Source: Caryophanales bacterium (GTDB lineage: Bacteria > Bacillota_I > Bacilli_A > RF39 > UBA660). Taken from it: DNA of 64,000 bases. Both the position numbers and the translations under genes were made by a program. Positions 22,076 to 64,000 of this stretch are shown here, in pieces (position 1 is the first letter of the stretch; every line of letters begins with the position of its first letter). The stretch lies in NCBI GenBank assembly GCA_016282155.1, contig JAEEJY010000037.1, positions 1 to 64,000 of the forward strand. The letters are read 5' to 3'. The notes below the pieces were generated by a model. The model was not told where the DNA came from. It worked only from the letters and a program-made list of their open reading frames with translations, and searched no databases.

Positions 22076-22079
22076 AAAG

Positions 22080-22365
22080 GTGCTTTGAGGGAGAAAAGTA
22101 CTCAAATAAGTTATTCAAGTGAGTTAGGTATAGTGGAAACTAATAATAACATTTGACGAAAGAACACTCCTGAGCTGACTACCGAAAAGATTGCTGAGTA
22201 GACTAGTCCGGGTATGTAGTCCGTTATCATACTACTAGGTTTGTTAGAACTGAAAAAAGATTACAGAATAACAAACTACTATTTTTAGTAGTTTTTTTGT
22301 AATAAATTAAGGTGGCACCACGGATACCCGTATTCGTCCTTATTGTAGGATGATACGGGTTTTTT
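22080..22365 (+). promoter_or_regulatory. T-box riboswitch, probably tRNA-Asn responsive
   Basis: A leader of about 285 bases with the conserved T-box element near 22306-22323 (AAGGTGGCACCACGG), followed by a terminator. In stem I the arms CAAAT and ATTTG can pair, and the bases just 5' of ATTTG read AAT-AAC at 22145-22150; both are Asn codons, so the specifier is Asn whichever triplet is used. The gene downstream is asparagine synthetase, which agrees. Uncharged tRNA-Asn would bind and favour the antiterminator. Stem I appears short. The T-box call is firm; the specifier placement was folded by eye. Confidence 0.9.
22326..22365 (+). terminator. Regulated terminator of the T-box
   Basis: ACCCGTAT/ATACGGGT arms with an inner CGTCCT/AGGATG pairing, then T6. 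The 5' arm overlaps the sequence that would form the antiterminator with the T-box bulge. Confidence 0.85.
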
Positions 22366-62820: not shown

Positions 62821-62824
62821 CTCA

Positions 62825-62855
62825 TTTTGACAAAATTGTCAAAATATGCTATTAT
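62825..62855 (+). promoter_or_regulatory. Promoter of the OLE-like RNA with an inverted-repeat operator
   Basis: TTGACA (62827-62832), 17-bp spacer, TATTAT (62850-62855) with TG-C before it: a near-consensus sigma-A promoter. The perfect inverted repeat TTTTGACAA-AA-TTGTCAAAA (62825-62844) covers the -35 and part of the spacer and is a good candidate operator. Predicted transcript start is near 62862. Confidence 0.75.
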
Positions 62856-62861
62856 TAATAC

Positions 62862-63497
62862 ATAAATTTGATTGGCGCATTATTCTAGTCAATGGGATTT
62901 ATTACGAAGATGGACCTAAAAAGCCATTAAAGAGCATATCTGTGAAGCCTGTGGTGCTTGCTTCTTACGCCCAGTTTGGGGTGAGTGCTGGAGGAAATGA
63001 AATATTGGGCGACCGTAATGGCATACGATCCCGACCCAATGTTTTGGGAGACCTAGTCTTGTGGTAAGCATATACATATATTGCATATTGACTTGACTTA
63101 TTACGAACTAGGATTAAACCTATCATGTGGCGAAAGCTATGGATAGTGTAGCTTGTCTTGAGTGAGTACGAGGGATAAACGAGCAATTTTATTTAATTTT
63201 TAGCTAGAATCAAATAAAGATCGCGTTTTGAAATCCTATTTGCAAAAAAGAATTAGTAATAAATTAGTTGCTGAGGAAATCTCCTAGAGTGTAATATCAA
63301 ATAGGTTTATAGTGTGTACTAAGTGGTAATCAAGTCGTATGACCGGTAACGCCATACACAATTCTTTAAAGGGGAACCGCATTTCTGGTAACGGATTTGT
63401 AGAGTTGGGGGAAATCTTACTTGACCTAAGACACAAAGTTAACTATTTGGTTAGCCATCGATTTCAATTAATTAGGACGTAAGTCCTTTTTATTTTT
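62862..63497 (+). ncRNA. ole: Large structured RNA, probable OLE RNA
   Basis: About 635 bases without a credible gene, less AT-rich than the surroundings, between a strong promoter and a terminator. Several distant pairings are visible: CGCCCA (62968-62973) with TGGGCG (63006-63011); CCCAA (63035-63039) with TTGGG (63044-63048); CCTAGT (63052-63057) with ACTAGG (63107-63112); AAGCTA (63134-63139) with TAGCTT (63149-63154); CCTATTTG (63235-63242) with CAAATAGG (63298-63305). OLE RNAs are about 600 bases long, lie directly upstream of the gene for the membrane protein OapA, and bind it at the membrane. The gene downstream fits OapA. The identity rests on size, structure and neighbour. Confidence 0.75.
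63472..63497 (+). terminator. Intrinsic terminator of the OLE-like RNA
   Basis: AGGAC/GTCCT stem with GTAA loop, then TTTTTATTTTT. Confidence 0.82.
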
Positions 63498-63498
63498 G

Positions 63499-63507
63499 TG
63501 TTATAAT
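63499..63507 (+). promoter_or_regulatory. Extended -10 promoter of the OapA-like gene
   Basis: TG-T-TATAAT directly after the OLE terminator; the protein gene can therefore be transcribed apart from the RNA. Confidence 0.6.
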
Positions 63508-63523
63508 GGATGTAGGTGATAAT

Positions 63524-64000
63524 ATGTTTAAAAAAGAAAAAAAGAAAAATTCAAATATAGGATGGATATTAACAATATCTTTATTAGCTTTTGCTATATC
63601 ATTTGTCTTTTCCTTTGCGTCAACATCAATCTTAAATGATGTTAATATGATTGTGGGAATAATAGTATTACTAGTATTTATATTTATTGGTATAATGTTT
63701 GATATGATTGGAGTAGCAGTAACAAGCGCAGATATTGGCCCATTAAATGCGATGAGTGCAAGAAAAATTAAGGGTGCGGATATCGCGGTATTAATGATAA
63801 AAAATAGTGCTAAAGTAGCTTCTGTATGTAATGACGTAGTCGGTGATATCTGTGGCATTATCTCAGGTACTGCAGCAGCTACATTATCCGTATTAGTAGC
63901 AAACGCTTTAAATTCATCACTTTTACTCGTATCTTTAATTGTAACAGCAATAACTGCTTCTCTTACAATCGGAGGTAAAGCAATATTTAAAGAAATAGCT
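63524..64000 (+). CDS. oapA: OLE-associated membrane protein OapA-like (3' end cut by the window)
   Basis: The first 159 residues of an integral membrane protein; the frame is open to the window edge. A Lys-rich start (KKEKKKNS) precedes TM1 near 13-33 and TM2 near 43-65. Next come the conserved DMIGVAVTSADIGPLNAM and KGADIAVLMIKNSAKVAS stretches, VCNDVVGDIC at 101-110 and GIISGTAAATLSVLVANAL, then TM3-4. This motif set, with its CNDVVGDICGIISG core, matches proteins encoded next to OLE RNA, distantly like DUF21/CNNM proteins. AGGTGATA precedes ATG 63524. OapA binds OLE RNA and holds it at the membrane; the complex affects stress and Mg2+ or energy homeostasis in studied species. Confidence 0.78.
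   Translation, partial: MFKKEKKKNSNIGWILTISLLAFAISFVFSFASTSILNDVNMIVGIIVLLVFIFIGIMFDMIGVAVTSADIGPLNAMSARKIKGADIAVLMIKNSAKVASVCNDVVGDICGIISGTAAATLSVLVANALNSSLLLVSLIVTAITASLTIGGKAIFKEIA

Follow-up and report, generated by a model that had tools for sequence, protein, structure and literature searches.

To our knowledge, OLE RNA ranks with the largest conserved RNAs of bacteria for which no biochemical function is known, and in the OLE dimer of C. acetobutylicum loop L9.3 is an intermolecular kissing loop. The cryo-EM work places an inter-chain A-A dimer contact and a proposed OapA site at loop L4, and describes a kink-turn formed by J4a/5 and J6/7 (PMC12286853); one proposal puts domain 2 on the membrane's far side (PMC12265935). 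The partner protein OapA is distinguished from CNNM proteins by a DxxxD motif, and it is the next-closest match to the PF01595 (CNNM) model after MpfA (PMC11332333). OLE together with OapA has been reported for RF39/TANB77 by Fernando & Breaker 2024 (PMC11332333).

The DNA analysed here, referred to as the window, is a stretch of 64,000 nucleotides (contig JAEEJY010000037.1, positions 1 to 64,000) from a Caryophanales bacterium of the RF39 family UBA660. It was found to carry a genuine OLE RNA and its partner gene oapA in a small-genome gut-type bacterium. The covariance model RF01071 matched positions 62856-63474 over model positions 1-616 with 394 bits (E 1.9e-113), the gathering score being 50 and a score over the full model being taken as the membership criterion, and the Rfam scan gave no other RNA family above its own threshold in the ole region. 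The initial annotation had read this non-coding structured element as OLE, which the full-length match bears out, with no rival large RNA class matching. The features of the locus are as follows.

62827..62855, + strand: probable OLE promoter, TTGACA-17 nt-TATTAT, 11/12 matches to consensus
62856..63474, + strand: OLE RNA gene (RF01071), 619 nt by the model
62909..62928, + strand: P4 hairpin with L4 CUAAAAA, from the RF01071 alignment
62940..62945, + strand: kink-turn strand one, J4a/5, C-UGU-GA, from sequence and motif scan
63047..63052, + strand: kink-turn strand two, J6/7, GGAGAC, from sequence and motif scan
63201..63206, + strand: L9.3 loop core UAGCUA, self-complementary, a predicted homotypic kissing loop
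63474..63497, + strand: intrinsic-terminator-like hairpin, AGGAC-GTAA-GTCCT with a T-rich tail, between OLE and oapA
63499..63507, + strand: possible oapA promoter, extended -10 TGTTATAAT, read from the sequence
63524..64000, continuing to contig position 64072, + strand: oapA, 182 aa in full
63833-63847, + strand: DxxxD motif (DVVGD) of OapA

The same annotation had spoken of a divergent OLE; it is an OLE, but not a notably divergent one within the family (rank 37 of 160), for which it is ordinary. As the pair is already known from such lineages, the window locus adds one member of an established type. Elsewhere in the window, the sole other RNA match was a T-box leader (RF00230) at 22076-22344, with 98.9 bits.

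Like the RF01071 RNAs of H. halodurans and C. acetobutylicum, the window OLE retains all conserved segments, P4-P9.3, P10 and P12-P14, the kink-turn motif and a palindromic L9.3, and adjoins oapA. It differs from them in the missing hairpin at model 424-435, which is also absent from the aligned family members, in a 17-nt insert in the P7 loop, in its AU-rich stems, and in belonging to a genome apparently without OapB and OapC. With the variant 1 and variant 2 OLE RNAs of TANB77/RF39 (PMC11332333) it shares a reduced-genome, uncultured type of host from which OapB and OapC appear to be absent. Six family RNAs among those examined lack P7 and P8, as variant 2 does; the window RNA differs from variant 2 in retaining P7, P8 and P9.3, and three relatives lose more than variant 2, namely P5-P8.

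The kink-turn strands were scanned as C-N3-GA and GGAGAC, which is our reading of the cryo-EM motif. Both occurred in 17 of 24 family RNAs, neither in 7 of 24 and one alone in none, and this joint retention or loss in 24/24 supports the J4a/5-J6/7 pairing of the cryo-EM structures. The pattern of these sequences suggests that the kink-turn persists in genomes without any L7Ae protein. The L9.3 loop was self-complementary in 81 of the 83 RNAs bearing P9.3 against 45 expected from shuffled loops, a figure uncorrected for relatedness, and its cores in the family include GGCC, AGCU, GUAC and GCGC among others. Pairing between the two ends of the RNA takes the form UGGC/GCCA (16/27) or UGGU/ACCA (11/27), with mismatches in 0/27; this covariation, like the co-occurrence given below, was counted over related sequences, so that the counts are inflated and overstate independent events. 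The paired ends are taken as a putative outermost stem of domain 2 that is unmarked in the Rfam model.

The promoter of OLE is of the sigma-70 type and ends exactly where the RF01071 match begins. That it is near-consensus, as first annotated, was confirmed by the sequence match and by an arrangement kept in a congener and three distant relatives, in each of which a promoter of equal quality stands upstream of OLE with the same spacing. A ten-base inverted repeat, ATTTTGACAA-AA-TTGTCAAAAT (window 62824-62845), spans the -35 box of this promoter. The palindrome ATTTTGACAAAATTGTCAAAAT on the -35 box was considered as an operator or regulon site and rejected, having no exact duplicate elsewhere in the genome and not being conserved in the congener. 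The annotated terminator after OLE is present as a hairpin with a T-rich tail, though a short one (63474-63487, 5 pairs), and one such hairpin was found against 0.5 expected in shuffles. As for a promoter of its own for oapA, the extended -10 element was recovered, while no recognisable -35 precedes it and the promoter consensus scan did not list it. The pair had been placed after a surface-glycan locus; polysaccharide genes go on downstream of oapA, encoding a glycosyltransferase, a DegT aminotransferase, a hexapeptide transferase and a GHMP kinase-nucleotidyltransferase fusion, so the pair sits inside the locus. The fusion (L002:10066-11982, contig 70065-71981) is a GHMP-type sugar kinase/nucleotidyltransferase of 638 aa (PF00288, PF00483).

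The membrane protein with the VCNDVVGDICGIISG motif is present as annotated, with a likely start at ATG 63524, preceded by AGGTGA, and an end at contig position 64072; an earlier ATG at 63506 overlaps the TATAAT box, and the last 23 residues fall beyond the window end. No substitution of either DVVGD aspartate occurs among 19 family proteins or among 36 drawn from a broader sample. The window protein is intact and carries all invariant residues, with 38-61% identity to its family relatives; this apparent sequence divergence is what sets it apart from other OapAs, which it resembles in the invariant DxxxD, a weak CNNM similarity, a length of about 180 aa, a helical membrane character and a gene adjoining ole. 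The full protein scored below the curated cut-off of PF01595 (27.9 bits in the genome search), and a weak match of this kind was obtained for 15 of the 19 family OapAs, in agreement with the published ranking of OapA by this model (PMC11332333). No family was returned by Pfam or NCBIfam for the window-truncated protein, and no sequence relative by the PDB for the OapA profile.

The portion of the protein encoded inside the window was modelled with AlphaFold2 (pLDDT 84.6), and the archaeal CNNM protein MtCorB (7m1t/7m1u) came out as the top Foldseek match, with probabilities of 0.91-1.00 and a TM of about 0.56; the E-values were weak (0.31-1.8), and CNNM entries were the only ones to reach high probability. 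As modelled, OapA is a CNNM-like fold without CBS or CorC domains. It would thus have a membrane domain fold in common (7m1t) with the MpfA/CorB CNNM Mg2+ exporters, from which it differs in the absence of those two domains and in forming a separate clade (100/100). In the tree the window protein was found with OLE-adjacent OapAs of Oscillospiraceae (Clostridia) and of its own family, the CNNM domains of MpfA standing apart on a 100/100 branch. The invariant DxxxD, the CNNM-like fold and this placement inside OapA and apart from MpfA identify the downstream membrane protein as OapA, in line with its first annotation. The family alignment also displayed a Lys/Arg-rich N-terminal tail in most OapAs paired with longer OLE RNAs, which is lacking in those paired with P7/P8-less RNAs; the tail of the window OapA is short, hence the link between tail and RNA length is loose.

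Among 60 genomes, the window's own included, OLE was found in 24, all of them in the window's family (24/37). OapA was present in 23 of these 24 and in none of the 13 family genomes lacking OLE (p 4e-9, over related genomes). Among 243 family genomes, 159 had OLE and 162 OapA, 157 having both, five OapA only and two OLE only. Across the class (296 genomes) OLE was confined to 26 of the 38 listed family members, with none in the 258 remaining sampled genomes. Judged by its reduced genomes and OLE variants, the family would correspond to the RF39-type clade of PMC11332333. Two of the five genomes with OapA only had the 3' end of OLE cut by a contig end, the third had 61 bases of contig remaining beyond oapA, the fourth was a marginal match (E 9e-4), and the fifth (G416) belongs to the same genus as G005. 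In G005 the two genes are found on separate contigs, C3 and C12 (L012, L048), which indicates that the pair can be unlinked. In G036 (L016) an OLE of 359 bits was found and no OapA, though the contig extends to both sides. G002 has a second OapA, nearly identical to the first and located where a contig ends, which probably represents a strain variant. A second OLE copy in G027 (L026:1446-1914) was rejected: its unmatched 5' part runs over the last bases of a coding frame, and the contig stops within its 3' side. It is treated as a remnant or an assembly fault, and G027 also has a full OLE (L006).

The other known partners of the RNA appear to be absent from this lineage. Not one of the 37 family genomes yielded a member of the L7Ae family (OapC/YbxF or YlxQ), whereas 21/23 genomes from elsewhere in the class did. 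OapB was searched for with the proteins encoded between map and infA in two Oscillospiraceae, and one of these proteins matches the solved OapB 7k9b (E 3.5e-5); the resulting profile had no match in the 37 family genomes, a searched set that held no positive control. Between map and infA, where Oscillibacter has the OapB gene, the window's own genome and G018 have 4 nt, so that the canonical OapB slot is empty in both. The own genome is 92% complete and 6.5% contaminated, which makes each single gene absence soft; the counts agree with the loss of OapB and OapC reported for RF39 and TANB77 (PMC11332333). Hence the check on these two genes that accompanied the initial annotation ended with both apparently absent from the own genome. 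MpfA was present in 1/37 family genomes against 20/23 others, and within the family its relation to OLE gave p 0.35, with MpfA in that one genome only. In twelve family genomes out of 37, OLE/OapA and MpfA are all missing; another system may take on the presumed metal-export role there, the role may be dispensable, or the assemblies may be incomplete.

The reading that best accounts for the ole-oapA unit, to which we give a probability of about 0.9, is a trans-acting OLE RNA that works with OapA in a membrane complex for metal and stress. The 619-nt OLE would be transcribed from its own promoter, ending near the short terminator, and would act in trans with the product of the next gene, the small CNNM-like membrane protein OapA. 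Two copies most likely dimerise via domain 1, through L4 A-A contacts, L5-L7 and the self-complementary L9.3, and the dimer may then dock on OapA at the membrane. The resulting RNA-protein counterpart of the MpfA exporters would sense or control the flux of divalent metals (Mg2+ and similar) as well as adaptation to stress. The sequence comparisons support dimerisation and the partnership with OapA; a membrane RNP, its dimeric form and its metal/stress role are presumed here by analogy with the H. halodurans and cryo-EM work. RNA and OapA are probably all that the complex needs in this lineage, since OapB, L7Ae-type kink-turn binders and nearly all MpfA seem to have been discarded and these two components must suffice.

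It might instead be supposed that OLE is mainly a cis-acting leader, controlling oapA by termination or read-through rather than acting in trans. The terminator-like hairpin between the two and the usual position of family OLE shortly upstream of oapA would suit such a leader, which is nevertheless hard to reconcile with the separation of OLE from OapA in G005 (two contigs) and in G007 (about 1.2 kb), with the conserved dimer loop, or with the trans-acting RNP shown in H. halodurans (PMC11332333), so that we hold it to be very improbable. There is equally little chance that the RNP is of standard composition and that genes for OapB and OapC exist but are missing from the assemblies: these are of metagenome type and the own genome is incomplete, yet the disparity in L7Ae counts, the 4 nt between map and infA, which leave no slot, and the same loss published for RF39 and TANB77 (PMC11332333) all speak against such gaps.

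Slightly less credible still is a reading of OLE as a relic that is decaying within a reduced genome. The loss of P7-P8 or P5-P8 in relatives and the lack of an OLE match in 84/243 family genomes are what decay could produce, but no conserved segment has gone from the window OLE, which also keeps its kink-turn, its palindromic loop and a good promoter; its OapA is intact with all invariant residues, and OLE and OapA are retained or lost jointly. The trans-acting OLE-OapA complex is accordingly preferred, and the locus offers a clean case of it in a lineage seemingly without OapB, L7Ae-type binders and most MpfA.

The family also contains much shorter RNAs. In three genomes of two genera, OLE measures 378-381 nt and scores 134-139 bits, still over model positions 1-616.

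L196:1669-2046 (G239): ultra-short OLE RNA, directly upstream of an intact OapA
L197:1663-2043 (G299): ultra-short OLE RNA, directly upstream of an intact OapA
L206 (G433): ultra-short OLE RNA, directly upstream of an intact OapA

These RNAs lack P5, P6, P7 and P8 altogether, and of P9 a stub is left from which P9.3 is missing; still present are the conserved 5' strand, P4 with CUAAAAA, P10 and P12-P14. The loss of P5-P8 and P9.3 would also remove two of the three dimer bridges, together with the kink-turn and the region of bS21. Each has a promoter of the TTGACA-17-TA(A/T)NAT type at the usual distance, and each adjoining OapA carries DxxxD. In the tree the three OapAs cluster together (100/99), next to the OapAs that accompany P7/P8-less RNAs (100/99), and a deletion common to two related genera may be a single event. 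The published survey retained matches of at least 235 bits to its own model (PMC11332333), a cut-off above the present scores, and probably left these RNAs out for that reason. Published OLE variation concerns the J6/7-P8 region, and no description of a minimal OLE without P5-P8 was found in that literature (PMC11332333, PMC12265935).

We think it likely that a natural minimal OLE of 378-381 nt exists in the family and that, if it is functional, the indispensable core would be domain 2 with the membrane-crossing P3-P4, and not the large cytoplasmic domain 1 of the cryo-EM structures. The graded loss of domain 1 inside one family is a more interesting outcome than the window locus itself. From the full-length RNA to the form without P7-P8 and on to that without P5-P8, with an intact OapA each time, it amounts to a natural deletion series, which makes the question of which part of OLE is essential directly testable by experiment, and its extremely shortened member may reveal the indispensable part.
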